From Fragilaria crotonensis (lineage: Eukaryota > Bacillariophyta > Fragilariophyceae > Fragilariales > Fragilariaceae): a DNA stretch of 47,178 bases. The stretch is from contig JAKSYS010000504.1 in the NCBI GenBank assembly GCA_022925895.1, positions 1-47,178 of the forward strand, read 5' to 3'. The translations under genes were made by a program, and so were the position numbers. The notes beneath the pieces are model-generated. The model worked only from the letters and a program-made list of their open reading frames with translations, searched no databases and had not been told where the DNA came from. Positions 13,386 to 47,178 of this stretch are shown here, one piece after another; within the stretch, counting starts at the first letter, position 1; every line of letters starts with the position of its first letter.

Positions 13386-13395
13386 ATCTCAAATC
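13386..13395 (+). repeat. Target-site duplication, left (ATCTCAAATC)
   Basis: The same 10 bases in the same orientation lie at 26604-26613, exactly outside the other inverted repeat. A 9-11 bp duplication is characteristic of Mutator-like elements. Confidence 0.8.
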
Positions 13396-13590
13396 GAGAT
13401 TTTCCAGTCTTTAGGCAGTCATCGCATGTTTTTTCCAGTCTTTAGGCATGAAGGCATTTCTGGTCATTTCAGATTTATATCGTATACATTGTGTGTATAT
13501 CCATTAACACCGAGCATGGCATACATGATTTCACGCAAGGCATGCCCAGCAATCTGTTTCGTGCTATACAACAATGTGTAAAGTACATAA
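13396..13590 (+). repeat. MULE left terminal inverted repeat
   Basis: Aligns with the reverse complement of 26410-26603 from GAGATTTTCCAG to ATACAACAATG. It contains TTTTCCAGTCTTTAGGCA twice, at 13400-13417 and 13431-13448, 31 bp apart. Confidence 0.8.
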
Positions 13591-14465
13591 TGTACTCCAA
13601 GTAGAAAGTACCACCACTGACATAATTCGCAGTCGTAGTGCTTCATGGCTTTCAGTGAAAACGTAGCACGTAGTAGTCTCTAGTATCTTCCAGCACGTGT
13701 GATTGTGGAGGACGATTACTACAATATCTGGTACAAATCCATGTACGGCACTACGGTAGATGAAGCTCAAAAACAGCAACACAATCGAGGAACACACTAT
13801 GAACAACCGGAGGGAGCGAGGAGAAAGAACAACAGCAAATGATACTACACAAAGAAAGAGCAACAACAATACAACTGCAGAAAGAAGAAGAAGAACCAGG
13901 GAAATAAGATGAAGATCAACAGCTATGTGTAACTTGTGCACAAAGCAACACTGAGTCCCAATCAAAGAGCTCGGTTTTGAGCACCATCCCTGACACTGTT
14001 GCAACTGGACCATATAGCGGTTGAGTTGACACTGCAATCAAATCTTCAGCTTTTCAATACTACAAGACAACAATGCAAATTCATTTTGGCATGCATTCTG
14101 ATCCGGTATTTGATCACACAAGGCAGGTTTGGTTTTTGGCATATTGGGCAGCAATCGCCGTGCCGAAAAATTCTTGGAACAGAAGAGTTGCCTTTGAGAT
14201 GATATCGATTTTGAAATCCCCTTTCTACATGGCTAGCGAGATCAGGCTTGGATTTGTGATAATCCTCGCTCCTTTCTTTCCTGCATTTTTTTTGGGGGAG
14301 TGAAATCAGTTCCCCAGCCACCAGCAAGTCATGTACCGCGTGCAAAAAATACACATTGAGGCAACGCGCCGGAGAGGAGGTAAGCCCTCAGTTAAGAAGT
14401 TTGTTGTTTGTCAATTTTCTTGTTTTTCACTAACATCCGATGAAGTCTTAGTTCTAAAATTTAGT
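13591..14465. other. MULE subterminal region without recognised gene
   Basis: Between the left inverted repeat and the transposase stop codon. A minus-strand frame at 14354-14046 contains DCCPICQKPNLPC, a possible Cys-pair motif, but I see no family or splice support. Confidence 0.5.
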
Positions 14466-16423
14466 TCAATTGCGGCTCCCAAAGTTAGAAACAAGGGATG
14501 TTGCATATTTCATTGCCTTGTCAATATTCTGTTGATATTGGTACTGCGTGTTTGGTTTTGGGCAAGTGGACATGCGATGACCAACAATTCCACAACCCCC
14601 ACATTGACCTGCTGTGCTGTTCCCTGATGTGGTGTAACGTTTCATTTTGGGTCGTCCAGCTCTTGCCCTGCCTTTTGGAAGGGCCAACTCCCGAACTTCT
14701 AGGTTGCCCATGGTTGATAAGTCACCATCCAGCCTGGTTGTGTTCATGTACATATTTTCCACTGTTGTTGCATGGTACAATGTGCAGTACCAGTTTGGGT
14801 TGTTGGGTTCAAGGTCTGCATTTATTATCAAGGCCATCGCATGATAGCATGGCATTCTCCGTTCCTCTGTCCAGCGACAAGGACACTTACAGGTAAAGCT
14901 TTCACTGTTGACTTCAACATCCACTGTGACAATTGATGCCATCCCAGGTGGTCCAGCGGTTGCAGGAGACACTGCCACCTGCCCTCTCCAAGAATGTCCA
15001 TTTTGCGATACCACAGTGGTCCTCAGTTTCCTGGCATCATCAATTGTTCTCGTATGTTTCTTTGATGCATAGTTGGTGAGTTCTTGCCCCTTTTGGATCC
15101 AATGTTGAGCTTTGACTTTTGCTTCATGGGATTTCCTCAGACTGCGTCCAATGATACCAGCAACCATTTCAGTGATGGGACAAGCCCTCTCGCTGAGGAT
15201 AGCACTATTTGTGTTTTCTGCAGCATTATTGGTCACCTTTCCATGTCGGCATCTTGGCGGCTGCTGGTCCAAAAAGGCAACTGTAACAAATTGCTGTTTG
15301 TGCCTCTCAAGCCAGTCTGCAGCATCATTGTTCTCCTTCCGAATGAAATCCAAACAAGCATTGTAATTTGCCTCTGTCCTTGCTTTTGCAAGATGAGATG
15401 CTATAAATAACTCAGTCTTCTTTCCGATTGAAGCATGAGTTTTGCAATTTGAAGCAAGATGCTTTGCGCATCTTGAGAAACTTATGTTTCTATCTCGGAG
15501 GTGATCTTGGAAAGCATTGGATTGAATGCCTTTGTCATAGTCAGCAACAAAAACGTCAATATTGGGGAAGTCGTCAGTGATGTGCCTAACAAACCATGTC
15601 CAGTTATCCTCATTCTCCACGTCAACAATAGATAATGCAAGGAGGACAATTTCATTGTTTCCATCAAATGCAACTGCAAGCAACAATGTTTGCTGAAAAT
15701 GGCCTCCTTTGGAAAATGTTCCATCTGCTATGACAATGCGAATACAGCCACATTCCCATGCCAGTTTTGACGTTGACAATGCAACATAACAACGATGGAA
15801 TTGCGCAAGGGTGGGTCTCCATGGGCAACTGATTGTTTGAAAGTATACCGAAGCCCCAGAATCGGCAATTCTCAAGTTGTTAAGGTAACTCTCAAGTATA
15901 AAATACTGTCCAAGATGATGCTCAATACGGGATGCACCTTTGTTGAAACAATGTTGTAAAGTTGTCCACGCTTCAAATTGATACCAGACTGTGCCTTTGC
16001 CATTTCTGCAAGCTGTTTTGCATTTCCACCTTTCTTGTTAGGAAGGAAACCACCTATCTCTTGAAATGCTCCTTGCAGTACCCGTTTATTGTAATTCTTC
16101 AACCTTAAACTTGAGGGGTCTCCAGACAAGCAGGTGTGGTCCAAAACTTCAGATCTCACCTTCCACATCATCGAAAGATCCTCTCCTTCTTCCTTTCTCG
16201 CAATTACTTTGAAACAACAATTGTTTTCTGACCCAGGAGTGTGTGATGCACATCGGAGTGTTAGTCTTGTTGTATTAGATGTTTGCACTCTGCAGGCTTG
16301 TTGTCTAGACTCATTAAACACGACCATAGCAGCAATTACTTCATCTTTTGATGAAAACACCTTATCAAGGAATGACTCAGCATTGTGGTCCATGGTTGTC
16401 ATGATCAGGTACAAGATATCCAC
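14466..16423 (-). CDS. MuDR-type MULE transposase
   Basis: This enzyme would cut and move the element by binding its inverted repeats. About 650 residues in order. The N-terminal zinc-binding FAR1/MuDR-like domain shows CRVQTS..LTLRCASHT and VLDHTC. The catalytic DDE core has D1 in IVIADGTFSKGG, D2 in VFVADYDKGIQS, and E in NNAAENTNS. Next is a SWIM zinc finger, FTCKCPCRWTEERRMPCYH (CxC..CxH). Last is a CCHC zinc knuckle, CGGCGIVGHRMSTC. One frame change near 15875 (a T-run in ATTTTATAC) splits the gene between LSIILDSI and ESYLNNLRIADSG. Everything else is open, so this is the best preserved coding region of the element. I cannot decide among the three clustered ATGs at 16423, 16402 and 16393. 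Confidence 0.88.
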
Positions 16424-18039
16424 AGCAGTTTTGATTTATTTGTATCAACAACTTTTTTCCCTGTTGTTGGGGGGCTTCTGATATTTTTGGGAAGTTCCCG
16501 ATGGTTCCCTCCCAAATAGATACGGTCAACAGCAGTACAACAATAGCATCACATACTGAGCTGACAGGGAAATCCACCTTGCCGTGCCCTTTTTGTGGGT
16601 ATAAATGAGATAAGTACATTGATAAGCAATAATCATTCACGCCAATCTTCATGTCCACCACCCAGTTTACTGTTCCTCCTATTTTGTTAAGCCCAAACCA
16701 GGCAGGACCCAACTAGAGAGTGAGATGACAAAAGATAAAAGATATCAAGAAGTCATCTATCATCATGACATGCTGATTCTCTTTTAATATATTTGTCTGC
16801 AGTACATTCAACGACTGTCATGCTGTCATCTGATTTTTGTGTTGATTGACTCTACTTGCTCAGAGTGCAGTATGAACCTTTCAGCAGCAGTGTAATTGTG
16901 GTCAGACTTGCAACCATGATCATGAAATGGTATTCTGGTCATGGCAGGCATAATAGCTGTGGTTGTTAAAGCATGCAACACATGCATAACCAGTGATTGG
17001 TCCACTAGTCTGTTTATCCGCCATTGGTGATAACTCCTAGTGTGAGGAATTGCAGCAGCCAGTGCAGTAAGTCAGCTCTCCTTCTTGTTGCCGTGCAGCT
17101 GCTGCTGTTATTGGAGTATGAGAACTTTCAGCCCATTCCTGATTCCACTTTGGCACATACAACTCTAGGCACAACAGAAGAAATGCCTTGGCTGTCAGTG
17201 TAGACCATTCACTCAATGGTTTAATCACCCTGTTATCAATGTACAATTTGTGTCCAACCACTTCCCTTGCAAGACAATCCAAAACTCTTCATATGCTGGC
17301 CTTGAATGGATAGAACCCCTCATTCCCATGATACTCTGCAAGCAGAATTCCCGGTTTGTAACAGCTAGTATATTACCTGTGGTAATATCAGAGAGCAGCA
17401 GGGTTTATGACAATCAGGAGAATTAGAACCTGCTTGAAGCACAAGCACCAGTTGCTGTTGTGCTTTTGTAGCTGGAGAATCTTCAATACTAAGTCAATAC
17501 AACAGCACCATCCTTTGCTCCACGCTACGAATCAAGAACCCTGCGATCGTCGTCGGTGTTGGGCAATGTTCAAAAACGTCAACAGGAAGATGGGTAGCAA
17601 CACTTTTGTACGTGGGCAATACACGCAGCTGGCCAAGAGCATCATTCATTGGGGAAGTGGTGCACTGCTTGCAGAAACAATTGCATGTACAAAAAAACAT
17701 AATTTGTAACAAAATTTTACAAAATTGTAGACTGGACGTGACAAGAAAATGTGGGTGTAAAACCCGCCGTCTGATGAGACAATCTCTCAACCAAATTGAA
17801 TCTCTCTCTGTTATCTTGACGGTAGTTGGCCACAGGGCTGGGTAGAAAGAATGCCATGGCGTTGTCAAGTCGCTCCATGTCCCTAACAGAAATGATTATG
17901 GAATCATTTTCAGTATCCTCTTTTCTAAGATATGCTCCATGTTGGAAACAGAATCCTATCCAAACAATAACTGCATCTCAGTCTGTGTTCACTGAATTTT
18001 CTAAACCAAGTCACCAACCGGAGATTGGAGTAACCATGT
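16424..18039. other. MULE interior, unrecognised
   Basis: No gene I can name. Minus-strand frames at 16712-16377 (GPAWFGLNKIGGTVNWVVD) and 17282-17037 could be upstream exons of the transposase or remnants of another element; neither has convincing splice sites. The rest is AT-rich with short open frames. Confidence 0.5.
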
Positions 18040-19377
18040 CCCTGATGGATTGTCTCAAACCATTACCATGCACTCAGCAAAGAATGGTGTCTGATGTTAA
18101 ACAAGTGGCAATGGACGTTCAAATATGGAGAGCCTTTCGATCACAAGAACGGTTACACATAGCCTCCGATGGAGGGTTACACAGCAACTTTGGTACGTTT
18201 GGGTGGGACTTGGCGACATGCGTCTAAACAAATTTTATTGCATGCACAGGTGGCACTGTATTGCCACTGCACTGGTGGCACCGTACACCATGGACGACAG
18301 TAGCAATAGCTTCTGTTCTGCTGCTCTCTTGGATGCTACTACTAGTGAATGGACTGAAGTCACTAGGAAGACCAACACTGGAAGGCCTAGAAGACCTCCT
18401 AGCATGCAGGGATCTACAGAGATATCCCAGGAGGCATCACACGTGAAGGAATGAAGACCTCACAGGTGTAAAACCTACCGGGAAGGTGATTTGAGTCCTG
18501 GTCTTCAGACTTAGATTTGTTGTGTGGAACCTACAGGATGAGGTCTTTTGTTGTCTGATTGGAGAGCTTTAAAAGCTCTCACCAGTGATTGAATGATGAC
18601 TTTACATTTTGTCTAACAAACAGATTAAGCTCACAATACAAGAATCTAGAAAGTGAGTAGAGGTCATCTACTGTCACATTTTGGACAACTTTTTTCGAGA
18701 CAACGCACTGTACGGAAACTACAGTATGGTGATTTAACAAATGTGGGGGTCTGGTTGATGGCCTTTTGATACTGCTAGTTCCACAAGGAGCAAGTTATGC
18801 GGATTTGCTTCTTTGTTACTTCTTATTGTGGCAGTTGCTAGAAATTGGGGTTTGAGATATCGATGTTCTTCTGGATGGCTCAGAGATAGCCTCTCTGCAA
18901 TTTCAAAAGTTTACAAAATGAATCAATGCAGTTGTCTTGCTAGTAGACAAACATTCGGCTCCAATCTTCTCTCAATGATTCCGACGCTTCTGATTGAAAT
19001 ACAACGAATCTTTCATTGGGTGAAAGGACACCAAGATTCCATCAGGTCATACGAACAGCTCCCAAGAGAAGTCAGGTTAATGATCAACGCGGCTTACCTC
19101 GCTACACGGTACCGTCTTCAAGGAAAGTTGAAGCCCATGAGTAATGTTGACAATCATACGGGCACCACAGATATCTATCTCCTCTATCATGGGAAAAAGG
19201 TTGACAGCCCAATACGATGAGTGTATTCGGTTTCACATAAATGGTTATCATTTGAAACAATACATGCAGGAACGCAAAAAATGGGATAAAGACACTTGGA
19301 ACATGATTGACATGGGGAGTTTTGGTCAACATTTCAAACAACTTACCCCTTCGCAGCAGGTATCACATATGAAATAG
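18040..19377 (+). pseudogene. Retroelement remnant with RNase H-like domain
   Basis: Broken frames on the plus strand carry the blocks of an RNase H-like domain in order: RLHIASDGGLHSNFGTFGWDLA (first Asp) near 18150-18220; RNWGLRYRCSSG..DSLSAISK near 18840-18920; and RIFHWVKGHQDSIRSYEQLP near 19005-19065, where WVKGHQD corresponds to the last catalytic region. Then come ATRYRLQGKLKP and, in another frame, AQYDECIRFHINGYHLKQYM and SFGQHFKQLTPSQQ. Stops and frame changes are too many for a working gene. The run resembles the C-terminal part of reverse-transcriptase polyproteins I associate with diatom genomes; no reverse transcriptase catalytic motif is visible upstream. Confidence 0.5.
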
Positions 19378-21720
19378 TGAGCAATATTGCATATATTGTT
19401 CCTGGAATGGAGTTCATTGACACCATGTGCTCTGTGATGTGAGTACTCTCAGACCAAAGTACTGAGATACACACAAAGGAGGTTTACATAATTCACAATG
19501 CAAGACTGACAACAAAAGTAAATGCATCAGAGGAGGGTGTTATCCACACTGGCATAAAGACTGTTTTTTGAGCAATTCAAGAATTTTCCAACAGGAGGAG
19601 TGAGTATTATGTACTACTTCCTACTAGTACCAATAGAAGTGCTCCAGTCATTTGTTGTGACTGTCAACATGATTGTCACTGTTGGATTCTTCACATGCCA
19701 AGTTGCTATTGCTCATCCACACTCCAAGTCTCTGTTGTAAGATTCAGGATTTTTGAAATGGATTCACTCAAAAAGGTTGTGTCACAATTCATGCGACATT
19801 CTTTACTTCATACTGGAGACTTCAAGCTAGTAGCCATTGGATAAATTTCAACAAATCTTTGAGTAGATCACTGCATCTTAAAACAAGCAGTTGAGATCCA
19901 ATTTCATGGCAATTGGTCAGGCATGATATCATTATGATGTCTGTGGTAAACTTGTTGACAAAGATATTTGTTCTGAGGCTCCAGAAGATGCAAATCCTCA
20001 ACAGTCTTGGCAGTGAAGAGACCGCACATTCCAGATACTGTGAACCTGCTGATGTGATGCATGGTATTGACCACCCTCTTTGTATTGGATTCATGCTAGA
20101 TCACTTGACGGTGTTTTGGCACAAGTGATAGTAGGTTTTTTGGCTTGGAGCAACAGTCACTCCAATCAAGCAAACTAAGTGGTGACACAATGTGGGTTAT
20201 TGTCTTGCAGCACATATCTCAGATTTGCCTTCTGCCACAAAATACACCAGCAAGGCAACCACCACTTTCCTAGCCAAAATTGCAAAAGGAGAGGAAGATG
20301 CTACACAAGAAATGGTGCTCCTTACCCGCATGGAAGGAGAAGAAGAAAGTTTTGAGTGCAACAATGATTCAGCAGGTGCATCCATTGACGCGTATAGGAG
20401 ACAAAATGGAAAATATTCCAGGTTTAACAACAACAACAACAACAACTTGCTGTGCATCTCCCACAACATTGCCACACCCCTCCTGCAATGTAGGCAAATT
20501 GACAAGAGAAGTAACACAAATTAATGATTTGATGCCATTCAGACATAGCAATTGTATTGCAGAGAAGATGGCATCGGCACCAAACATGGAGCTCCTCAAA
20601 GGAAAGAAGCACCCATTGCTTCTCCTGCTGTTTCTACTGGAAAGTGAGAAATGCCGAGTACCGGTAGAATGAAAGTTGGTAAAGGTAAAACTGTGGAAAG
20701 GGGCTTGACCCATCTTTCTCACAAGCACCAGCTGCTGGCTGCTGTGACAGCTACAACAGCAGCAAAGAAGAAGGCAGCTAAGTGAAAGAAGAAGGTTGGT
20801 GCATCATCTGACAAGCAAAATGTGCTATTGGAGGAATTAAAAGTCCAATACATGAAAGTAGGAACAAAGATGGATGCTTATCTAAGTGACAACACTGATG
20901 ATGAAGACTACGTTGCCAAGGTACGCAAAACTGTAGACGTTTAATTCAAGATACTATGAAAACAAGCCTATCAGCAAGTTGCGGTTGTCATTCTCTCTAC
21001 GCACAAAACTTGTCTACAAATGGAGGTTCACAAGACAGAGAATAAGATTTCCATGGATGTAACTGAGGCAGTATTTTGAGTGTTGTAATCATATAAGAAC
21101 AAGTTGAGCCTGCATCTTGCAGGAGAAAAGCTCAGTCTGAAGAAGTTGGGAACCACTGCTATTTTATTATTGCAATTACTGTGGATGTTGTTGAAATCAC
21201 AAGTTCTTGAAGGTTTTACCTGGTGATTGCTCTGTGGACTCAAATAATAGTGACATTGCATTCTTTTCAAAGTTTCAATATCCATGTTAGCAAAAATTTT
21301 GAGAAGACAGTTTTGAGAGAACTTGTTTGATCACACAATTTGACCAACAAGGATCATAGAGTTGCACACAAAAGGTGATGTCCATAGGATCAGAACTCAA
21401 GAATTGGAAGATTGTTTAGCTTCTAATTATGCTGTCGCCCGCTATTGTAGGGTTCAATACAAAGGACCTGCAGCACACTCCTTTAATCATACCAACTTAA
21501 ATGATCATGGAGTTGAGGTGGACGTGGCTGCTGAAGTTGAAGTGGATGTGGCTGCTGAAGTTGAGGAGGAGAGTCCTATTGAAGTTCCAATAGTTTTAAT
21601 GTTGAAGATGCATCAAATTTTTGCGCGCAGGGTTTTGGTGTGGATGATGATAACAAACCTACCCCAGGATGAGGACAACATTGAAGACTCTGATTTTTCT
21701 TTGGCTGGGGTGAGATGACT
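19378..21720. other. Decayed low-complexity DNA inside the MULE
   Basis: No intact gene. Visible: an (AAC)n microsatellite at about 20426-20446; a short open run ending NTDDEDYVAKV and a possible GTACGC donor near 20920; and a 27-bp tandem duplication encoding VDVAAEVE twice near 21516-21570. Part may be the front of the piggyBac remnant that follows. Confidence 0.5.
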
Positions 21721-21972
21721 CTAGATGAAAGGAGGAAAGCTGCTTTGAGCTGATCCAAACATCTCAAATTCAATATTGATGATCCTCCTCCCTTGAAGCA
21801 TCCATCCCACTCTGTCAATCAGTTGATTGATGCACTCAATAGTCACACACAGGCTTGCTCCAGTCCTGGGTGGGTGAAGTGTCTTGACAAGAGCGTGTCT
21901 GTTTGGACGAACCAATGGATATGCCTAGGATGGATGTTTGTTCCAAGAAAACCCCACCCAATGTTTGCTTAA
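21721..21972 (+). pseudogene. piggyBac-like transposase remnant
   Basis: One frame reads LDERRKAALS, stop, then HSVNQLIDALNSHTQACSSP and GWVKCLDKSVSVWTNQW, followed by GWMFVPRKPHP and a stop. The piggyBac/PGBD catalytic block normally has LDESM, then RKPHPFGNEYH. Here LDESM has become LDKSV, the Phe-Gly-Asn block is lost, and the frame is broken. It is a dead fragment; no TTAA-flanked ends were found. Confidence 0.6.
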
Positions 21973-22522
21973 ATCCATTCCAGGACCAATGTTGCTCACC
22001 ATTTCACATCATACAGCACTCTTATGGATACGTAGACACAACAACACTGCATTTTGCTTAATTGATGCCAGCACCATAAGCATCACCAACTTCAGCAGCA
22101 AGAAACGGTATTGATGCACTCTTCACAACTAGCTACCTTTTGATTCCCTAAGAATTCAGTTCAATCTGCTGTAATGTGCGCTCCAATGAATCATATGCCA
22201 AGTCAATTCCATCTTCAGTTACTCTTTAGTCTCTGAAATGACAAACAATCAGTATTGTCATCAGTATTTGTCCTTCTAAAGAATGTAGGACAATCTTTAG
22301 CATTCACAGTCAATAGGAAACGACCATCACTATAGTTTTGCCGCTATTTACGGACCCCAAAATCAGGGCAATGTTGCCAATGAGTGCCCAAAAGACTTGT
22401 AACTTGTTGACATTGTCAAATTGCAGCACAGCAAGTTACACAGTGTGCCAACATGGATTACAGAGACATGAATTATACATGAGTCCCCAGGAAGGGAAGC
22501 CGCAGGAGGGGTTGGGTTGTAG

Positions 22523-22700
22523 TGGAAGTGGTAGTGGTAATGGTAGCGTTACTGTTACTGTTAGTGATACTGTTAATGGCAGTGGTAATGTTTATGGTAG
22601 TGGTACTGTTAATGGTAGTGGTACTGTTCATAGTAGCGGTACTGTTAACAGTACAAAGCGGTACTGTTTATGGTTTTGCCAGTGGTACTAGTACTGGAAA
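22523..22700 (+). repeat. Degenerate GGTAGT / ACTGTTA satellite
   Basis: About 180 bp built of short, variable units such as GGTAGTGGTACTGTTA and GGTAGTGGTAATG, with a 6- to 18-bp period. Apparent open frames across it only reflect the repeat. Confidence 0.75.
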
Positions 22701-22869
22701 GTAGTAGCACATCCACAGTAATCTGGTAGTGGTACTGCTACAGTAGAGGTAGTTGTACAGTACTGGTACTGGAGTACTAGTATCGGTGCTAGTAGCTGTA
22801 GAAGTATACTGCTACCGTTAGTAGTCACGCTACTGTAGCTAGTACTGGTATGGTAAGATCGGACGCCTA

Positions 22870-22881
22870 CAGCAGGTTTCA
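22870..22881 (+). repeat. 12-bp terminal inverted repeat, left (nested element)
   Basis: CAGCAGGTTTCA, preceded by TA at 22868-22869. Confidence 0.6.
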
Positions 22882-23436
22882 TTTCCGATAAACCTGGCGC
22901 AGGAAACAGTATAAACTCTACGCGACTAGATTTTTGTTCTGCATGTGACGTCATATTTACAAGTAGTTGTCGTGTTAAAAGCGTGAGTTCCACCATGAGA
23001 TTGCATGCCGCCGTTTGCCTTGTTCCCACTCCTTACAAAGTGCCTCACCCTGGCAATCCTCTCCAGAATACCCTCTAGAATTCAACAGAGTGATTGAGGC
23101 ACTTTGCAATGGCCGACAGTGGTCGAATAAATGCAATAATAGCAAGGGCTGTGACCGTTCTTTTGGATGACAGCCGATTTGGACCGAGATTGTCAAACTG
23201 TTGGCTCCCGGCCTCAACGTGGGCAGAAGCTTTGGCCAAATCAGGCACATTGATGCCTCCCTTGTTAGTACTGATGCTCGAAAATTTAACGTTGCCATGT
23301 CGAAGTCCAATTTATTTGGTGAATCGATGACACGTTTCGATGGCACCAATCAAACAGGAGTGTTCCGAGTGAAATATGCTCGGCAATATTTCTATTACTT
23401 TACTGAGAAAATCGGCAAATTGAGTATCCATTTCCA

Positions 23437-26226
23437 TTGAATAACACATGGAAGGATAGGGTCCTGCAAGCTGCGGCTAACGTGCTCGTAATTCCGTCAA
23501 CTCGGGCAAGACCTGCAATATCCTCAACTGCTATTCTTCACGACAACGACAGTACTATCGAAGGCGATGAGTCACCAAACAAACGTCCAAGAATAGAAGA
23601 GCGCACAACAACAATGTCATATTGGCCTGATAGCCCAGAAGCCCGCCAAGTTTTCAGACCAAGAACTATGAGGACAATTAGGACTGCGGTTAGCAGTACT
23701 GGTCGTGATGAGGATGGCAATACGATGACACTTTCTGGAGAAAGTGCGAAGGAAGCACTGGAGCGAAGGATCAAACTGCTACTGACGGTTCATGAGAAAG
23801 AAGATAGCTGGCGAACTATAGTCATGGGAAGAGATGAAGAGAACTTTGTACAAAGGCTGAGATATTTGAGATCCGACAGCGTGCTTTATTTCTCTGCTGT
23901 GCCTACCAATTGGCACTCTCAAAATGAACGATTGGACGTGGCATGACTGTTGCAGAGAGGCCTGCAATCGTTTAAATAGTCTAGGCCTTGTGCAGGCAAC
24001 ATTTTTCAAGACAATCGCGAACTGGAACAAGGTTTTTAGGAAGTTCGAGTGCTTCCACATCCCAACCCGTATGTACAATGTGGAAAGCGACCTTGCCGCG
24101 ACTCCTCGAAGTATTTCCAACTGCGAAGGACCAAATAATTGCATATGGAATCAAGAATCTAGCGACACTAACAATAGAAAGCGTCCACGATTTCATCCTT
24201 TCTTCTGTCATTCCAAGGCTAACAGTACTGTGGGAGAAGGAGATGATGGTGCCAGCGGACGATTGCGACAATACATCCGAGCCAAGAAGTCGAGCGATTC
24301 ATTCATTTCTTAAAACTCATCGGCTTGAATCAATGAGTTTGACTACCACTTGGCGATGGATGCGTTTGCTAGGATTCCAATACGACACGAGGAGGAAAAG
24401 TTTTTACGTTGATGGTCACGAACGTGACGATGTTGTCGCGAGTCGTTCTACGTTTTGCAAGCGTTACCTAACAGAGTATGAACCATACTGTAATCGGTGG
24501 ATTCGACTACCTTTGAGAGAGGCAACAACAATCAAGAATCTTAACGTTGCATTTGGCTATTCCTATTTTGACATTATTAGCAACGAGGAATGGATCGAGT
24601 TCCACGTCGACTATTGGAAGAGTCGTATTATGGAGGAAAACGAACCAAACAACAACCGCCAGCCATCAATGATATCCAGATTGAAGAAAAGAAAGCAACC
24701 ACCAGCATTCGTGTATCAAGCGCAACGAGGCCGATCATGATCGTGGGGCAGGATGAGAGCGTCTTCGCGCAGTACCTTCTTGGAAGTAAGACTTGGGTAG
24801 GACCGAAAGGCCAACGCCCTCTCCTACCCAAATCGGAGGGCGATGGCTTTATGCTATCAGCCTTTGTGTCGAGAGAATTTGATTCGGAAGAGACCTGTCG
24901 GCAGATGAGTTAGTAAAAATAAATGCAGCAAGGCGAGGAGGTGACAGGACTTACATTGATACTCAAGCTGCACTAGAAATTTTGAAGTCGACAAAGAAGC
25001 CCGTCTTGACGGAATCACCATTCGTAAAATACTTGTACATCGGAGCCAACAACGAGGATATTGGAATAGCTACCATATGAGTCTACAGTTTGAGGACGTT
25101 GTCGATTGCCTGCAAGTCTTGTATCCTGAGTTCGATTTCGTGTTCCTGTTTGATCACAGTCAGGGACACGCTCGCAAAAGACCTGGGGCACTTAATGCCT
25201 TTCAAATGTCGAAGACCTATGGTGGCGCGCAGGCAGTAATGAGAGACACGACAATAATGAGTAAAGACGGATACCTTGGGGAACACGTACCTCGATTGAA
25301 TGTCGGTGACACTCAGTCGTTCATTTTCCGCGCAGATGATTGTGGTCCATTTTATCTGTCACCAGAACAGAGAGAAGAGCAACGACACGATCGACCAACT
25401 GGGAAATTCAAACGTGTGGAGCGGTCAAAGAAGATGCTCATGAACGCCTTAAGTGATGCTGGAGTATCATTTCAGCAGCAACGGAGTTACACAAAGAAGG
25501 AGCTTCAAGATTTTGCAAGGATCCGTGGCATTGATCTTTTCGAAGAAAAAGAACAAATAATTGCGGGATGGCAGGGGCAACCGAAAGGCCTTCTGCAAGT
25601 CCTAAGGGAAAGAGGTCTTATTCCTGAACACTCGTTAGAAAAATATACACTTGATGGTCGAAAAGATCCAATCACAGGCGTTGTCGACTTACATTATTCG
25701 CTGAGAAATCTACTTGCCGAGTGCACCGATTTTAAGGAGGAAGAAACAGCACTACAATACTTGGGGACTCAACTTGGGAGTTACAGTTCAGCTCACTCCA
25801 AAGTTTCACGCCGAGCTAGCGGGTGAGGGGATAGAGTACAGTTGGGCGCATGCAAAGGCATATTATCGTCGCGTTCCAGTCTCAAGAAAGCGAGGACGTG
25901 AAAACTTCAAAGATCTGGTAAAAGAATGCACCTCTCCTGCTAAGGTGTTAACAAAAGCCAGAATTGAGAAGTTTGCATCAAGAGCTCGCGCCTATATTTG
26001 CACTTACCATCATCTTGAGCAGGTGCAATCAGCACGAGCTGCCGCAGTTGCTGGTGTTGATCCAATCGCAGTTTTGCCAAAAGAAGTGCTCCCGTACACT
26101 GACATTGAGAGGGTCAGGAAGGCCTTCAAGTGTCACAGGTGTGCCCTTGACTTCGATAGTGGTTTCGTGAATTCGGAGCTCAAGGAAGAAGCAACAACAA
26201 GGAGAGGAGGTGAATCAAGACGATGA
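23437..26226 (+). CDS. DDE transposase of the nested Tc1/IS630-like element, frameshifted
   Basis: About 900 residues once frames are followed. The variable N-terminus has PNKRPRIEE as a likely nuclear signal. A helix-turn-helix-like domain with WRWMRLLGFQY and YVDGHERDDVV follows; this GHER block is a mark of a transposase group I know from fungi and protists. The catalytic domain has D1 in IVGQDESVFAQY, then PKSEGDGFMLSAFV, D2 in FVFLFDHSQGHARK, AVMRDT, and E in GEGIEYSWAHAKAYYRR after LTPKFH. The last segment has CHRCALDF. Frame changes occur near 23940, 24070, 24735, 24905, 25075 and 25745, without obvious loss of residues, so the decay is recent or artefactual. The true start is uncertain: the first in-frame ATG is at 23614, and a short coding-like run lies at 23298-23440. 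Confidence 0.7.
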
Positions 26227-26373
26227 TGATGAAGTGAATTCGGAGTAAGAATGAGTTTTATGATGAGCAGCGTGGAGGCAATCTGATTTCGGAAGGATCT
26301 TTCAGAATTTTACTTTAGGAAATTGTATGATGTGTAGAAATTGTACTAATCTGTACGCGAGGACGGTCAAGGG

Positions 26374-26385
26374 TGAAACCTGCTG
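26374..26385 (-). repeat. 12-bp terminal inverted repeat, right (nested element)
   Basis: TGAAACCTGCTG, exact inverse of the left copy, followed by TA at 26386-26387. Confidence 0.6.
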
Positions 26386-26409
26386 TATGTACAAAAATGT
26401 GCAGCATGT

Positions 26410-26603
26410 CGTACTGTACATTCATTGTTGTATAACCAACAGTTGATTTCAGGGCATGCCATGCGTGATATCATGCATGTCATGCTCGGTCTTAATAAAT
26501 ATTAAACCAATGAATACGATATAAATTAAGAATGACCTGAATGACGGTCATGCCTAAAGACTGGAAAAAACATGCGATGTCTGCCTGAAGACTGGAAAAT
26601 CTC
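26410..26603 (-). repeat. MULE right terminal inverted repeat
   Basis: Inverted partner of 13396-13590. Here the two 18-bp submotifs are at 26551-26568 (exact) and 26582-26599 (one mismatch), again 31 bp apart. Confidence 0.8.
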
Positions 26604-26613
26604 ATCTCAAATC
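26604..26613 (+). repeat. Target-site duplication, right (ATCTCAAATC)
   Basis: Second copy of the 10-bp sequence at 13386-13395. The apparent tandem AAATCTCATCTC here arises because the repeat end abuts the duplication. Confidence 0.8.
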
Positions 26614-38013: not shown

Positions 38014-38480
38014 TATACCACTCTAAACATCTACAATTCCAACTCGACTGATCAAAGTGCTGTACACAGTGGGTTGTGGAAGCGCTGCAATGTAGATGCA
38101 AACGAAGTCACCAAACTACCAACTGTATCAATGTGATCAGAAAGTTTGTTGTCCGCTGTAACGTTTTCTATCTCACATGTCGTACTTCGAACTCCGAGTG
38201 CAGAAACGTGTGAGTGGCTGACCACTTCAACGGGTCACGGACAGGCGACATCCACATACAGTACAGTAGGAACACGCTAGTACAGGTGCTGGGGCGTCTC
38301 GAGTCTTGATGCTGTCGTGCTGTCGCACATATTTGCACCTGTTCCTAAAGATTCCTACCTTGCGTTGTTGATGTCAACAATCCAACCTGTTGAGTCTCCG
38401 TTGTCATCACATTCAATAATGTCCGATAGGGCCTGAAGGCGAGGGAGCGGATCGACTATCTTCCATCGTATTTTCCAAAT
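38014..38480. other. Divergent promoter region
   Basis: 467 bp between the NUMOD3 gene (minus) and the membrane-protein gene (plus). No gene, repeat or clear site recognised. Confidence 0.5.
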
Positions 38481-39627
38481 ATGACGGCAAACGCAGCTGG
38501 AGCTTCTCCAACAGCAGTGGCACCCACTCCCAAAACCAATACGAACGCGACCAAAGGACAGCAACACGAACAACCTCATGTGTCGGACAACAATCCTCGA
38601 TGGAAGGGATACGCCTACCTTGCTTTTGCATCTCTTGTGTGTTGCGCCTCCACCGGCAACGTTAAGGAAAAAAGTAGTGAATTCGTGGTATCTGTCGCTG
38701 TCGGATCCGTATCGTTTGCTCTATCCATGATCATCTTATTACTAGATCGATTCCATGGCTGTTTCGAATCATTCAAGTTTCATAGAGCGCATGACGGAAA
38801 GTTGGAAGGCTTCTTTCTGATATTTTTTGTAATGTGGTGGGTGTTTGGTGTTTGGATCATGACACAATCAGGAGGAGCTGGGTACTTTGCACTGAACATT
38901 TATTTCTCGTCATGGCTGTCTTTATTCGCGAGTTGCTATACTCTGAACGATTGGTCAGGCAGCAAGGACATTATCACTATACAGGAGCTCACAGCTCTCA
39001 GTGCGACTTTAAGGGGATGGTATTGTCTGTTGTTTTCTTCATTGGTTGTTATGGGGTCGGGTGCAGACATGCATCGACACTTGAGCGAAGATGGTCCGAA
39101 GCAACAGGCTTCCTTTTCTGTGGCTCTTGGACTTATTTCAATGATTGTGGCATCAATATATATACTTGCCTACTATCGGATCCTTTCGTTCGTTCCGCTA
39201 AGTGGTTGCGTCGAACTGAGTGTCGCTGGCGTCATGATGGTGCTTTGGATTATTGGGTACGTCCTACATGTGTCAGTGGTAGTGTTTCTTGTGTGTTGTA
39301 TCGCTCGGAACTAACTTTCGCTGCCGATTAAAATGAAGAGTTGGAATCTTGACCCAAGATGAGAGTGTCGCCGCCTCCATCTCTGGTCAATGTCGGGCAG
39401 AAGACAATGAGTCTCTCGATGCCGCTGTTCCCGGGTCCAACCTGTACGTCTTTACCTGGATATGCTTGGTTAGTGTTTTGGACATTGCCATGTGCTGGAA
39501 GGCGTCACAAGCAATGGCATTTGCCCATGCGGGTTCCACGCAAGCTTCTAATCGCCAAAGGGCCACCTCGGAAGGAGATGCAGAAGAACTGCACGACGAC
39601 GACGATGATGAGGATGACGAAGTGTAG
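38481..39627 (+). CDS. Eight-span membrane protein, unrecognised
   Basis: Two exons (38481-39256 and 39339-39627) joined across an 82-bp intron (GTACGT to AAG) after WIIG give 354 residues with no frameshift. A polar ~40-residue N-terminus precedes RWKGYAYLAFASLVCCAS. Hydrophobic spans then alternate with short loops: FVVSVAVGSVSFALSMIILL, GFFLIFFVMWWVFGVWIM, YFALNIYFSSWLSLFASCY, WYCLLFSSLVVMG, FSVALGLISMIVASIYILA and SVAGVMMVLWIIGVGIL. The last span, LYVFTWICLVSVLDIAMCW, is in exon 2. The tail is extremely acidic (HDDDDDEDDEV). The WW..GV.I.TQ..G element appears twice in related form (WWVFGVWIMTQSGG and LWIIGVGILTQDES), suggesting an internal duplication of a four-span unit. I do not recognise the family; a role as transporter or sensor cannot be decided. 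Confidence 0.75.
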
Positions 39628-40055
39628 ATACGTTCAACCACCTTGAAGAGTGCGAATGGACTTTTACTAACATTATTGAACATGATAGCTGACGCAAGCA
39701 ATGCCTCTCAAGTCCGAATTCCCTGCTGCACTTCTGTAACAACTCCAGCAGTCCTCTAGGTCCTTCGCATTTTGCATGCATTGAGAATTGAGACTCCATA
39801 CTCGGTGCTAGTAGTAATTCGAGTTGTACAAGTGCACCAGGATCCGTGCAATTACCGAGGACGGAGTGCAAGTACCACCGCATGTTCCTTTTAATGGTTT
39901 TTTGGATTTTTAAAACTTTTTTAAATCATTTCCGATTCCCAATCCGTGTCTGACTGGAAAACCTGTCCATTCGTCAGACGCCGGCATCGCGACTCGCGAT
40001 TCGCGATGCTGGACGCCAATCGCTTCCGGGTTTCAAAACCAAACACGCAATCACT
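39628..40055. other. Intergenic region before the copia element
   Basis: 428 bp without a gene. It holds the hairpin at 39984-40009. Confidence 0.5.
39984..40009. repeat. Hairpin GCATCGCGA..TCGCGATGC
   Basis: Nine-base perfect stem with an 8-base loop that itself contains another TCGCGA, 47 bp from the left LTR. Function unknown. Confidence 0.6.
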
Positions 40056-40364
40056 TGAGACTATCACCGGAGATGATACTCTAATCGTAGAAAATAGTAC
40101 GTAGTACCGTAGGAAAATTACTGTAGGGAGGTTTCACACAAAGTACGTTCTGAGAAATTTATAAGCTACAGTAAAATTCGGCACTCGATCGTATGAACGA
40201 CAAACTCGTCGAACGTGTCAAGTGGCACTTGACATTTCGGGTAGTTCGTACGAAATTAATTAGAGACCGGACAGTACAGTGTATCATGTTTCACATTTCG
40301 ATGGATGACCTCACAGTAGCACAGTACAACGATGGCATCGCAGTCCAGTGCAGCGTAGGTTTCA
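40056..40364 (-). repeat. 3' LTR (left on + strand)
   Basis: Begins TGAGACTATCACCGG and ends GTAGGTTTCA, the TG..CA termini typical of LTRs. It matches 46867-47174 at about 98%. Confidence 0.88.
40216..40234. other. LTR hairpin, G-C version
   Basis: TGTCAAGT-GGC-ACTTGACA: eight-base stem, three-base loop. The other LTR has TGTCAAAT-GGC-ATTTGACA at 47026-47044: both sides of one base pair changed and pairing is kept. Confidence 0.7.
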
Positions 40365-40380
40365 ATTCTCCCTTTCATCC
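40365..40380 (-). promoter_or_regulatory. Polypurine tract (second-strand primer)
   Basis: On the minus strand GGATGAAAGGGAGAAT lies immediately before the LTR start TGAAACCTACG, the expected place for the primer of plus-strand DNA synthesis. Confidence 0.7.
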
Positions 40381-40477
40381 ATAAATGCTGAAACAAAACA
40401 CAAAACGTCAGTTAAAATAGATACGAGTCAAACGAGGGTTACAGTTTGAACAAGAGACACAAGGGTTTGGGTGGCCG

Positions 40478-43400
40478 TTACCATCCTTGGACCAGTTTGC
40501 GGACGCGTTCGAAACTCTCACGATTTAGTCCTTTCGTAAGAAAATCCGCCCACTGCTCCTGAGTGTCGACCTTCACGATGGCGACCGTGCCATCACGCAC
40601 GTGCTGCCAGAAGAAGTGCCACTTCACCTGGAAGTACTTCGTGCGGTTGGTGATGCGTTGGTTTACGGAAGAAGCGCGCCATTGTTGTCTTCGAAGACTT
40701 GACACTTGATCGTCGACGTGAACGTGCGAGGAAGTTTGATGCCGGAGGCGACTTCCTGGAGCATGGAACGGAGGGCAAGAGCGTACGCATCGCGGAGCTG
40801 AGCGGAGTATTCGGCTTCGAGCGTGGACAAGGAGATCTCACTTTGGAGGTGAGATTTCCACAAAATGGGACATCCGCCGAGCGTGATGATGTACCCAGTT
40901 CGAGACTTCGCGGAGGTCGGAGAACGATCGGGATCACGGCCATGGAGACCGGCGAAGTCGGCGTCGACATAACAGTCGAGATCCAGCGTGCCGGTGGGCT
41001 TGACGATCATGCCCATGTCGCTCGTGCGATGCAAGTAGCGAACGAGAGTTGACGGCGGACGCGTGGCTTCGTTTCGGGCTGTGGCAGAACCTGGCGACCT
41101 GGCTGACGGCGAAAGCGATGTCGGGGCGAGTGTTTGTGGACAAATAGAGAAGCATGCCGACGATTGAACGGTAGCTCCACGTTTCCGTCATGGGGATCCG
41201 TCGGGGTCGATTCCAGTGCGGCCTGAGCGGCTGGCGTCCAGTTGTAATTGCTGTCGGACATGCCAGTCGCTTCCTTGATTTCTGGATGAGACCTTCTGGG
41301 TCAACGTCAGGGTGCCATTCGTAGCGTCGCGAGTGAAATTGATGCCGAGGAAGTCGGTGAACGTGCCCTCGCGAGTAAAGTTAAACCCTTCGCTTCCAGG
41401 TTGGCGAAGAGCTTGTCAAGGTCGTTTGGTCGCGATAGGCGATACCTAAATCATCCACGTATAGAACCACCATAATTGTATCTTTGTAGAGTAGACACGG
41501 GTCGTTAGCGCAGGCTTTAAAGCCTTCCTCGCGCAAAGCCTCCGACAAGTGTTGGTACCAAAGTCGTGGCGCCACACTCAAGCCATAAAGGCTTTTCAGG
41601 AGTCGCAGGCACGTGGCGTGGCCTCTCGGAGAGTGGAATCCACGTGGCAAATGGATCCAGACTGGATCCGAAAGCGGGGCTTGAACGAACGCGCTGCTGA
41701 AGTCAATTGTGCAAGTTTTCCAGTTCAAAGTTAGTGAGAGAACTAGGAACAACCGTACAGTACTCCAAGCCACGACTGGGGCAAAAGTCTCCTGAACGTT
41801 TTCTTGGAGATCGCCTCTTACACAGTAGCGTGCCTTGTACTTACTGATAGTACCATCGGGAGTACGTTTGCGACGAAACACCCAAGTACCGGGCAAAATT
41901 CGAGTCTTGGCTTCCGTGATCGGCACTTCGATCCATGTACCGTTTTTCTGCAAACTTTGAATTTCGTCGTTTGCAGCCTTCAGCCATTTTTCGATGTTGT
42001 CGTGATCCGCCATCGCTTCGTTGAAGCTCAGAGTGTCAGGATCGCTGACACTCGCCTTATACGACGAGGGAGGTGGCGAAAGACACTCGGCGACTTCATT
42101 GTACAGCCATTCGAGGAGGTTCCATCAGATTCGGCAATGTAACCGTGTCCTTGCTGTCCGTCGTATCCGAGGCGGACAGGTGCCGAGCGATTGCGAGTGG
42201 AGCGACGAGGTTCGTGTTTAACAGGTGTGCTCTTTGCTTTTGTTGCCTTTGAGCGACTGGTTGCTCGCTCACTTTCTTGTCGCTTTCGTTTGCAGGACGA
42301 ATTGGAGTCGGCGACGATGGGAAGAGTTTGACTGGAGTTGGAGTCGGAGTTGAGGCGCAATCGGCGTAGGCGGTTGCGGAGTCGCCTCCTTGGAGTCAGC
42401 AACGGAGTGGCAGGGGGAGGAGGCACAACGACTGGTGGTGGCGTCGCGATTTGCTCCCTTGGAGGCGGCAACGGAGTTGACAGCGGAGGTGGAGCGACTG
42501 GAAGAACCTGAGGAGGAGTCGCGTTGTCGAGAGCGGTTGCGACGCGTTGCATCTGGGAGAGGAGTTCGTTCGCTTGCTCGTAATCGGTGGAGCCAGCAAT
42601 CAGCCTTTCTTCGTCTTCGTCGTCGAGGACGTATTGGAACGTCGAGTCTCGGAACATTCGTTGCCAACAATCATCGTTGAAGTTCGGAAGGTCGTCGGCG
42701 GAAGCGGGGACAGTTGCGAACCAATCGTCAAAGACGATGTGAAACTGCGGAGTGATGTACCCCGTTTGAGGATTCAAGACAAGAGGGACCGAGCTGGCGT
42801 GTTTGTCGGAGAATCCGAGGTTGACAGTGCGAGTTGAGCGAGGAGTCCAACGTGGCAATTTCTTGCCGTCCGAGATCATTTTGTCGAGGACATAAACTGG
42901 ACATCCCCAAACGTGGACGTCCATCAATTTCTTTTGCTCCCAACGAGTCTTTGTGAAGACGTCGTGCGGGAAAGGCCAGTTCGTGGGTCAGGCATGTGGT
43001 TCACTAGGAACACAGCATGCTTGACGGCGAGCCAAAGTGTGGGGTCGGCGACGTCCGGCCAATGGATGGCCGAATGCAGCATCATGGTTCGTGCGATCGC
43101 CATGATGGTTCGGATGTTGCGTTCGGCGATCCCATTGTGATGGTGAGCGCCGACGCCGGCGAATCGGATGACTTGTTGGAACTCGGCGAGGTTGCGAGAG
43201 AACTCGCGGACGTGAACGTTTTGAGTTGTCGGCGAGATACTCTTGCGGCGTCACTCCTGTGTTGCGACACATTCGCTCAAAACTCTCTTTGCCTTGAGCG
43301 TTTCGTGGGAGTTCAAACTTACTTGATGCTCCACAAAAATAAACCCGGAGGCGTGGTCAACGAAGACAACCACCGGTATACATGTCGTCGAGTTTCGTTT

Positions 43401-46400
43401 TCCAGCGGAGGTAAGTAGACGTCCACGAGTGCTGCAAATAAAATGGTCGACGGAAATGCGTTGACCTGGGAGAGATTGTCTGTTTTAGAGCGTGCGCTCT
43501 ATCTTTGACAACAGACGAAGGCGTCGTGCCAGGAATTGGACGTCGATGTTGTTTGCCATATTGGCAGGCGGCGCATTTTGGGAACGAGGTAAGTCGACAT
43601 GCGGCGGTTTGTAATCGGCGACTTTCTTCCGTTTTGCTGACGACGCCGGAACGCAGGATGAACTGGACCTTCTTGAAGCCGACGTGACCCAACGATAGTG
43701 CCAACGAAGCAATTCTTTCTCTGCTTCATTGAGGTTGAGGTTTCGTTCGTGAACGGTGTTCACAATCGAAACGAGCGTCGGCGGCCTTGAAAGGATCGGT
43801 TGCGTTGTACGCTTCCGACGTTGGGAGATTGTTCTGCGGGTTGACGTTTGCAGTGACAGGTCCTCGATTGGCATCGTTCGGGACGCCACTGAGCGTCAGA
43901 CGATTCGGTTCGATGGTGATCGTTTCGTCAGGGTAAGTCTGGAGGAGACTGGACGTCGAGAGGAGTCGGACTTTGATGTTGGGAACATGAAACGCGGGGA
44001 CCTTGAGGAGTCGAAGGTTTCCAAGCTGATCGTGGACAGCCCAAGTGACTTCGCCTTGGCCTTTAATTTGTAGACCCTTGGCGATGCCTTTTAGCTGCGT
44101 GATCGTTCCGGGCGACGTGACGGGGCCTTCGAAATCGGAGATGTCGGGCGTGATCGAAATGCTTGCGCCCGAGTCCCAAATGATGGGGCTCGTGTTTGCT
44201 TTGGGTCCGAGGGCTTCTCGCATACGAGCGGGAGCCTGGAGAGCCATGCGAAGCGGCGTCGAATGGCATGCCAGATGAACGTGCGAGAGGATTTTGTTGG
44301 CGGCGGCACGTTGGTGGAACGTGAGCGGAGCGATTGCGAACGGGTCGGGCGAGTTGGCGGGTGCCACAGGGCAATACTTCGCGGTTCGTGGCGACGAACG
44401 TGGGCGTTTGGAGCACCAGGAAGGACACGAACGCTTGGTTTTGGGTGTATCCCTCTCCCTTTTGGCCTGTGGTAGGCGGCAACGGTGCAGGGCGACGAGA
44501 ATTGCGAAGCGAGTCGGCACGACGTTGGAGACGGAGTGCGCGTTCCTTGAGAGTCGCGAAGTGACGAAAGTCGTCGCGCTCAGCAACCGTAGGAGGTCGC
44601 GAAGCGACATATCCCTGTTGTCGGAGACGGAGAGGGTACGAACGGTGCAGTTTGTTGGCTCGGATTCCGGAATTGAAGCGGGGCGGAGCGAACGACTTCT
44701 TGAGAAGTCGTGAGAAACGACGACGTTGATCGCGAGTGAACGGAGGAGGAGATGAGGGGAGCCGTCGAAGCGACGGGAGGTTGCTGTAGGAGCGTTGACG
44801 GGAAGACCGAGAGAAAGAGAAGGATAACCCAAACGGTAGGAGCGAACGCGAGCGTTGGGTGACGAAGAACAACTTGATGAAGATTGTTGGCGACCCAAGC
44901 CAAAATGGTCGACCATGGGATGGCGGATGCCAAATAGATAGCAAGGTTAACCAAAATAGGAACCATTGCACAAATGGCAAAGGAAGAGACAAGAAGTAGC
45001 CATGGGTTCGCACCTCGGATGAGGTTTAGAAGCGAACGAGGAGGAGACGCGATGTTTGGCTTGACTGGAAAGTCAAGCATCCAAACGGAGGGATCCGGCG
45101 CCAACATGCTGAGATTTGCCCTTGGCGACAGTGTCGGAGCGGGAGGACGACGTTCTCCACCGGTGTGAGTGGCAGTTGTGTGCGTGACGGTCCAACGACG
45201 ACACTTCTCGCACCAGTTGAAGGTTTTATCCTTCACTTTCTTGGAATTGCTAGTTCCGGGAAGTGGTGGAATTGTGCGCCAGGATTTATGTTTGTTGTGC
45301 GATCCTGGCGGGACCCAGAGGAGGAGGACGATCCGGACTTACGATTGAGCTCCGGACACTTGTTCGCCCAATGACCGGGTTTTCCACACTTGTGGCAATT
45401 GCCCTTCTTCGTCGTCGTTTCGGTCCCGGATGCCTGGGACTGAATCAACGTAAGTACCTCAGCTCGGGAGATACCTGCGGGGGCAGTTGCGACATTGCCA
45501 AACGTCGCAGACGGAGCTCGGACATCAGGTGCATGACTCGCTGGAGGCCATTCCTTTCTGTCAAATTGCGTACGGTACGCATCTTCAGCTTGGCGACAAA
45601 TATCTTGGAACGTCAATTTCTCGGCGACCATGTGAGCATGGGCGCCTGACTTTCCTTGTACCGATGTCGAGGAGCGCTGATCAAGTTCTGCTTCGTCGAA
45701 CGGAGAGGAAAGCGGAAGTCTTCGTTTCCGGCTCCTCCGGCTAAAAGGAAAGTCTTGAGCATCGTGAGCGTGAGGTTGTGGTCGTACTGACCTGCCGTCG
45801 TGAGCTCACGTGCGTCCTTGCGATAATCGGCGGCGAGGGCTTCAAGGTTTTCGCCGGCGTACTGGGACGGGTGGCGAGCCTTGATCGCGGCCTTCAGGTC
45901 TTCGAAGCGCTCGATCGACGTCGACTGGATCGTCTTGATGAGCTGGAGCCAGACGACGTGAAACGAGTCGTCGTCGTCCATCTTCTCTTTGATCTTGCTC
46001 ATGAGAGCGGGATCGAGAGGAAGAAGAGAACTTGGTGGCGGCGAGGTCGTTCGACTTGTCGTACTTGTCGTAACGGAGGAGTTGCTGGGAGCTGAGAGTC
46101 TTTGCAGTCGCGACGGTGTGAGAGTGGCTCCTGACGACGTTCGTCATCACGGAGGAGCTCTCAGGATCGGGGAGATAGGCGATGGTATCCATCCCACAAT
46201 CAACGAGATGGTCCCAAACGGCGTTCTGGAAGTCGACGAGACTGCTCGCTTGGGTGAAGAGGGTCGTCATGCCGGTACGACGAAAGTTGTACCCCTTTTG
46301 TGAGGCTGAGGCATGGACAGGGCGGAGTTGGTTTGGTGACGTGATGTCGTCGGCGGCGCTCGGATCGAGGCCGACCCAACCAGGAGCTGGCTTACCGCCA

Positions 46401-46545
46401 GTCCAAGCGGACCAATCATCCCTGGAAAGGGAGACAATGTTGCCCATAATGGGCTTATCGGGCCTATCAGAGGCGACGATAGGGTCGGAGACAGGTGGCG
46501 TGGGGACGCGGTGACGGGGTCAGAAGTTGGTGTCGGAGACGCCAT
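40478..46545 (-). CDS. Copia Gag-Pol polyprotein, frameshifted
   Basis: It starts [15 protein letters not shown] at 46545 and ends RVRKLVQGW at 40478. Gag includes [20 protein letters not shown], then the knuckle [14 protein letters not shown] (about 45380). A module [20 protein letters not shown] with hydrophobic stretches ([20 protein letters not shown]) follows at 45230-44850. The protease has WDSGASISI (about 44175). The integrase shows an H-H-C-C finger ending CAACQYGK, then DHASGF-type and NGIAERNI blocks in shifted frames, and a Pro-rich, basic tail. Reverse transcriptase has [27 protein letters not shown] and the catalytic [10 protein letters not shown] (about 41460). RNase H has [18 protein letters not shown] and WADFLTKGL. 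At least ten single-base frame changes divide it, scattered along its length, while domain motifs are intact. Either sequencing indels or early decay explains this; LTR identity says the copy is young. Confidence 0.85.
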
Positions 46546-46683
46546 CTCGGAGAGATCAGGAAGAAGAACTTGGGAAGGTCTTGCGTAGGACTAGCACGGC
46601 GTGCTTTTAAACGTAGAATAAATAGCCTAGTTGGTAACTTAGGCGCTCGGAGAGACTTGCTTGTAGGTTGGAAACCGTAGAGT

Positions 46684-46808
46684 AGTCAACGGCGTTGACT
46701 TAGAGCTGCAGCGTAGACGATTGCGGAGCAATCGGGGAATAGATCCTTGGAAAGGATCAACCTGAGTGTCCTTGGAAAGGACACAACAAATTCCTTAGGA
46801 GAGGAATT
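46684..46808. other. Run of five hairpins in the copia leader RNA
   Basis: Five inverted repeats in 125 bases: 46684-46700 (AGTCAAC-GGC-GTTGACT), 46719-46733 (GATTGC-GGA-GCAATC), 46742-46758 (GATCCTT-GGA-AAGGATC), 46766-46784 (GTGTCCTT-GGA-AAGGACAC) and 46789-46808 (AATTCCT, 6-base loop, AGGAATT). Three share the same GGA loop. They lie between the primer-binding site and the Gag start, where packaging or dimerisation signals occur in LTR elements. Confidence 0.75.
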
Positions 46809-46850
46809 GGCTTGCCTGGTAGGAAGCGTGAGGGGGTTAGCCTATAGATT

Positions 46851-47174: not shown

Positions 47175-47178
47175 ATTT

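Follow-up and report, generated by a model that had tools for sequence, protein, structure and literature searches.

The sequence analysed here, referred to as the window, is one entire contig (C453; GenBank JAKSYS010000504.1, 47,178 nucleotides) of a 62.1-Mb assembly of 881 contigs. Labels beginning with C and L denote contigs and loci of this assembly (G000). The host was identified as a diatom because genes of the silicon transporter family are present (PF03842; 19 matches in a profile search of the assembly, of which 18 exceeded the cut-off; among 14 control genomes there was a match in one, and in none above the cut-off). Positions 13386 to 26613 hold a single large Mutator-like element (MULE), as had been proposed in an initial annotation of the same sequence, with its own transposase gene and an interior composed largely of pieces related to other mobile elements and repeats.

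The left terminal inverted repeat (TIR) occupies 13396-13586 (plus strand, 191 bp) and the right one 26411-26603 (193 bp), the latter within a right terminal part on the minus strand at 26386-26603. The two arms align over 181 nt without gaps at 81% identity, and over 196 alignment columns at 81%. Repeats of about 195 bp running from 13396 to 26603 had been annotated; those boundaries hold, while the arms are 191 and 193 bp long and only 81% alike. Two occurrences of the 18-base motif TTTTCCAGTCTTTAGGCA are present in each repeat, at its positions 5 and 36; three of these four are exact and the other has one mismatch. The motif is plausibly the binding site of the transposase. Both outer ends are abutted, as annotated, by the same 10-mer, ATCTCAAATC (13386-13395 and 26604-26613), the target site duplication (TSD).

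Further copies of the end repeat and an empty site, both proposed as searches in the initial annotation, were found. The first 201 bp of the element matched 16 places in the assembly, itself included. The terminal 22 bases, searched with up to 2 mismatches, occurred 12 times in 62.1 Mb and the backward control 0 times; since eight of the 12 ends also lie in facing pairs (on C453, C18, C77 and C74), the end repeat is above chance. C111 and C209 contribute one end each of a single locus held in two contigs, the other end of which has a small deletion inside the repeat with the first 14 bases kept. Copy sizes calculated from end positions were 13.2 kb (C453), 10.8 kb (C18), 4.0 kb (C77), 6.6 kb (C74) and 7.1 kb (C209/C111). 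Perfect 10-bp duplications flank four of these five loci (ATCTCAAATC on C453, ATTGAAAAAT on C18, AAAAAAAAAC on C77, GTATAATTTA on C209/C111). The more diverged C74 copy has an imperfect duplication, in which 8 of 10 bases agree by eye. Flanks of 1 kb were dissimilar between loci, except for the C209/C111 pair.

When the window flanks were joined with one duplication removed, they matched C829 across the join at 95%. The empty site there reads GTATCTCAAATCTCAACTC and holds a single ATCTCAAATC. The left flank is 97% identical to C829 over 626 bp and the right flank 98% over 1,604 bp, and window 38400-40040 corresponds to C829:103555-105178 at 98%. Given this colinearity with the window, C829 most likely represents the second haplotype, which lacks the MULE, or else a diverged duplicate region. 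A corresponding empty site for C18 was sought with the joined flanks of that copy, and the sole match was C18 itself.

C829 carries an insertion of its own next to this site. Locus L040 (C829:82523-91786) is a 9.26-kb insertion 27 bp left of the MULE target, so that two large insertions on homologous contigs lie at almost one spot. A 246-bp direct repeat (99%) has one copy at the left end of the insertion and the other near its right end, where a 243-bp perfect duplication lies beside it.

The copy on C18 matches the window over 13391-22869 and 26386-26605, and its flanks and duplication differ from those of the window copy. Compared with the window without 22870-26385, it shows 34 substitutions in 9,658 aligned columns (0.35%; four of the 34 adjoin a 7-bp indel and are alignment-dependent) and 11 indels, the largest of 1,128 bp and the other ten of 1 to 23 bp. 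Its interior is that of the window: the transposase, a piggyBac-like piece, a fragment of a retroelement with a piece of a long terminal repeat (LTR), and the other scraps. Since the two insertions have unlike flanks and unlike duplications yet diverge at 0.35% of aligned sites, the 9.7-kb mosaic has moved as one unit. Joint movement is demonstrated for these 9.7 kb and not for the full 13.2 kb.

The same comparison bears on two further explanations of the structure. In the first, two unrelated solo ends of miniature inverted-repeat transposable elements (MITEs) would flank 13.2 kb of host DNA by chance. Two of the 12 ends, on C742 and C12, are indeed partnerless in the pattern search; single ends with their own duplications were not seen in a partial test, in which the flanks of these two were not searched for duplications. 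The identical outer 10-bp duplication and the empty site on C829 speak against this explanation, which was given next to no weight, and the presence of the same interior at another locus in the 9.7-kb C18 copy refutes it. In the second, the assembly would have joined two insertions or haplotypes. It apparently holds both haplotypes of some loci (C209/C111, C453/C829) and may contain one-base errors in runs, but the same 9.7-kb order with other flanks on C18 makes such an artefact highly improbable.

The segment 22870-26385 (plus strand) is a 3.5-kb transposon flanked by TA, with ends CAGCAGGTTTCA...TGAAACCTGCTG; the second TA is at 26386-26387. On C18 position 22869 is joined straight to 26386 with TA present once, and the same join is found in C77, C74 and C209/C111. 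The segment is therefore a later insertion into the window copy, being absent from the other copies examined. At least five other near-full copies exist at 98-99% (40 of 294 candidates were scored). It had been annotated as a complete second transposon; matching ends and a TA duplication agree with this, whereas its reading frame is in several pieces here. Pfam searches with four pieces of it from the window (E 0.1) and one open reading frame (ORF) each of relatives L026 and L027 (E 0.05) gave no match. The TA target suggests membership in the IS630/Tc1/mariner superfamily. The C18 copy has received an insertion of its own, the 1,128-bp indel noted above, which lies in its right inverted repeat (L010, about 46477-47600 of the contig), has ends CCCCCGACAG...CTGTCGGGGG and has a 74% relative in C742. 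The alternative offered initially, between a mobile cargo element and a landing pad for other transposons, resolves into both in order: 9.7 kb moved with most of the debris, and 3.5 kb then landed.

The main transposase ORF (14469-16037, minus strand, 523 amino acids) matched the MULE profile PF10551 above the cut-off (E 3.5e-10). With its MULE-type DDE transposase domain, long TIRs and a duplication in the 8-11 bp range, the element is classed as a MULE. Of the features previously listed for this protein, the MULE domain was supported by profile; the DDE residues, SWIM-like finger and CCHC knuckle were read by motif, the Pfam SWIM match being below the cut-off (E 0.016). Motif reading gave putative D105, D166 and E274, a CxCx(11)CxH motif that we take to be SWIM-like, and a CX2CX4HX4C presumed knuckle. 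An N-terminal part with a weak MuDR DNA-binding domain (15875-16435, minus strand; DBD_Tnp_Mut, E 0.018, below the cut-off) adjoins the main ORF in a separate frame in the window copy. The frame is broken near 15938 in the window, where C18 is continuous, and in C18 close to the positions that correspond to 15091 and 14682. As all three breaks lie in or beside short single-base runs, assembly errors and recent decay are indistinguishable here, and either may account for them. The next-nearest transposase relatives within the genome have 25-33% protein identity, and the lineage is therefore small. A second, mudrB-like MULE gene in the right half was also considered. The piece 21344-21715 gave just a sub-threshold SoxD match, its relatives gave piggyBac (C30) or nothing (C34), and no second gene is claimed from the piece and relatives scanned.

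The interior was searched segment by segment against the assembly. Positions 13600-17074 were matched in C453 and C18 alone. The cargo had been described as one transposon and remnants of two more; this count is too low, as the pieces recognised are related to no fewer than six further repeat families or loci. From left to right, 17075-17400 is a truncated piece from inside a multicopy repeat, whose better-matching loci number at least nine and are 86-89% identical, and 17487-17772 (plus strand) consists of three stitched fragments of 75, 102 and 102 bp that are 95-99% identical to a donor at C829:112064-120996. Positions 17783-19373 (plus strand) are an internal fragment of a retroelement ORF which, by motif, we take to be reverse transcriptase/RNase-H-like; Pfam gave no match for it. 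This fragment is contiguous in C12 and C16 and is split in the window by a retrotransposon LTR, complete or partial, at 18240-18737; related LTRs are paired about 5.2 kb apart on at least six other contigs (40 of 93 candidates scored). A target duplication was sought at the joins of the LTR piece and no clear one was found.

The core of the MULE right half starts at 19367-19745, which is common to C74 (from 19367) and C273 (from 19395). It is followed by a repeated ORF piece of unassigned kind (19924-20630, plus strand; about 67-71% to at least six loci), a piece related to C394 (21070-21428, 76%) and a piggyBac-like transposase remnant (21429-21963, plus strand), whose relative on C30 matched PF13843 above the cut-off (E 3.6e-5). 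Compared with C30, C177 and C74, some 240-300 bp of this remnant are gone at 21740, with short shared sequence at the join. The right subterminal region of the MULE (21965-22869) contains a degenerate minisatellite. Capture of spliced genes was considered by checking the join at 21740 and those within 17487-17772 against the relatives for GT-AG introns. Splicing does not account for these joins, which resemble microhomology deletion or filler joins.

Three of the other copies share the right half of the window element, from 19367 in C74 (74-80% where matching), 19568 in C209/C111 (97%) and 19716 in C77 (98.6%). They are without transposase, and on their left side they have an inverted version of the right-end sequence in its place. 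In the C74 copy (L012) the subterminal minisatellite is greatly expanded, at about 1373-2944. In L013 and L014 (C209 and C111) about 1.9 kb of other sequence replaces window 21431-21490, in both contigs.

The three stitched fragments correspond to C829:112064-112138 (99%), 120132-120236 (95%) and 120892-120996 (95%), with order and orientation kept. C829 was the sole place matching all three (all 10 candidates scored). On this contig the donor and the empty site are 20-29 kb apart. Under a uniform model, a donor would fall within 30 kb of one or the other insertion site with a probability of about 0.2%. Where the fragments meet there is short microhomology or a small number of filler bases. 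The stitched unit of about 290 bp is present in the window and C18 copies only. Because all three fragments share one donor in cis, at least part of the patchwork was, we infer, acquired at or near the window locus, and the fragments appear to have been captured rather than inserted. Capture at or near the C453 locus followed by transposition of a copy to C18 would be the simplest history. The donor region (L030, L042 and L031; C829:112-121 kb) has two large convergent ORFs, of 1291 amino acids (no Pfam match) and 1166 amino acids (weakly Plavaka-like), and a tandem array with a period of about 191 bp at one side.

Another origin for 17487-17772 would be a short non-autonomous, MITE-like derivative of a Plavaka-like element at C829:112-121 kb that made a local hop into the MULE. 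Donor piece 1 is close to one side of that region and piece 3 close to the other, both beyond the ORFs, and the ORF that contains piece 2 has a Plavaka match (PF18759, E 9e-4, below the cut-off). An inverted word of at least 10 bases between the two donor sides was sought and none was found, the fragment edges are without evident duplication, and the 290-bp unit was found in two MULE copies only; the derivative is accordingly considered unlikely.

Nested insertion plus deletion is the main rival to cis capture. The element would then be a landing pad only, a small MULE bloated by successive and later eroded transposon insertions with no capture by the MULE itself. Such insertion is exemplified by 22870-26385, which has both ends and a TA duplication, and by the LTR piece nested inside another fragment; erosion by deletion is seen at 21740, and C209/C111 hold other sequence at another place. 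Against this rival, the remaining fragments appear truncated, with no duplication recognised when their joins were read by eye, without statistics. The pieces in 17487-17772 share their single cis donor, and no terminal repeat was found between the donor ends. This rival opposes the capture step and not the movement of the 9.7-kb unit, since even a bloated element would have moved as a unit. It is a serious possibility, though we put it somewhat below even odds.

The explanation that best fits the whole is a diatom MULE with its own transposase, whose mosaic moved, which later received insertions and which was probably filled in part by capture in cis; a probability of roughly 80% was assigned to it. 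The binding, excision and insertion steps are established for MULEs. Here the transposase would presumably bind the duplicated 18-bp motif in the 190-bp repeats, excise the element and paste it into a 10-bp staggered target. At least part of the patchwork may have been copied in by template switching during gap repair, while the element resided at the window locus or close by. The assembled 9.7-kb copy would then have moved to C18, the direction from C453 to C18 being the probable one. Afterwards the 3.5-kb TA-target transposon entered the window copy and the 1.1-kb element entered the right repeat of the C18 copy.

A broader reading is that a transposase-bearing MULE acts as a collector, copying neighbouring scraps, mostly transposons, in cis, remaining mobile at just under 10 kb and carrying the mosaic onward. 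We hold it tentatively, at a little less than an even chance. If it were true, capture and transposition would proceed without a separate non-autonomous Pack-MULE stage.

Several points weigh against the explanation preferred here, that of a mobile MULE partly filled in cis. No transposase copy, in the window or on C18, is open from end to end. The transposase-bearing form exists in just two copies, C453 and C18, so that present-day activity is unproven, and it is past movement that the two loci show. The cis argument concerns one donor locus and was made after the fact; piece 3 also has partial matches on C209/C111 (93%, 55 bp) and on C1, C497 and C193 (79-81%). The distance of 20-29 kb exceeds the under-15-kb class given for most animal cases (PMC8277862). 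Nested insertions that were later trimmed by deletions could be another source of the fragments; the deletion at 21740 exemplifies such trimming.

MULEs have TSDs of 8-11 bp and TIRs of 14 to 500 bp (PMC6446971). Within the classification of Dupeyron et al. (2019), group 37, 'MULE-Diatoms', is listed with TIRs of 123-124 bp, SWIM and 'No TSD and not indicated' (PMC6446971). Compared by description, the present element resembles this group in its transposase with a putative SWIM finger, TIRs longer than 100 bp and stramenopile host, and differs in its TIRs of about 190 bp, clear 10-bp TSDs and 9.7-kb body (PMC6446971). For animal Pack-TIRs, most cis cases are within 15 kb (Tan et al., 2021); the cis bias was seen for single-copy Pack-TIRs, multicopy ones lying far from their parents (PMC8277862). 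As in Pack-MULEs and Pack-TIRs, outside fragments lie within a TIR element and a parental copy exists elsewhere; microhomology, a donor often in cis and multiplication by later transposition are likewise shared (PMC8277862). Unlike Pack-TIRs, the present element keeps its transposase, its recognised pieces derive from mobile elements or repeats, and its donor is 20-29 kb off (PMC8277862). A plant Pack-MULE in the strict sense has lost its transposase and carries host gene fragments, whereas here the transposase is kept and the recognised pieces are mobile elements or repeats. No diatom Pack-MULE was described in the titles and abstract openings searched, which does not imply that none has been published.

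The Abermu MULEs of barley and other plants exceed 8 kb with transposase, and some copies contain nested CACTA or LTR elements (PMC9168764). They are alike in being large, transposase-bearing MULEs with nested elements; Abermu has two additional ORFs and a very high copy number in barley, in contrast to the patchwork of transposon scraps and two transposase-bearing copies found here (PMC9168764). Mutyl of Yarrowia lipolytica (7,413 bp) is likewise a large MULE with a TSD of 9-10 bp, and differs in its 22-bp TIRs and two ORFs (PMC2725143). Large and cargo-bearing MULEs are already known, and the present case is a well-resolved diatom member. It is distinguished in that a mosaic of just under 10 kb moved jointly while still encoding transposase, and in that the donor is in cis. 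The order of events can be read, from capture or accretion through movement of the mosaic to later insertions in each daughter copy, with the empty site kept on a homologous contig. A MULE body of just under 10 kb, laden with transposon debris, could still move in a diatom, and its cis donor makes it a test case for the gap-filling model of Pack-TIR formation beyond plants and animals.

A scan of the window for tRNA genes (bacterial code) and Rfam families found nothing. Outside the MULE, a Copia-type retrotransposon occupies 40049-47177 (RVT_2, E 2.3e-30; LTRs 98% alike), and the contig end falls in or just at the end of its second LTR. C829 is colinear with the window up to 40040, just short of this element. 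At the contig start, an inverted repeat whose arms are about 1 kb apart (5-77 and 970-1043; 97% over 74 columns, with 40 nt free of mismatches) is possibly another small transposon. Elsewhere in the assembly, silicon transporter domains occur in tandem within one open frame: three in a 1456-amino-acid frame at C97:29749-33762 and two in a 1008-amino-acid frame at C771:21664-24330.

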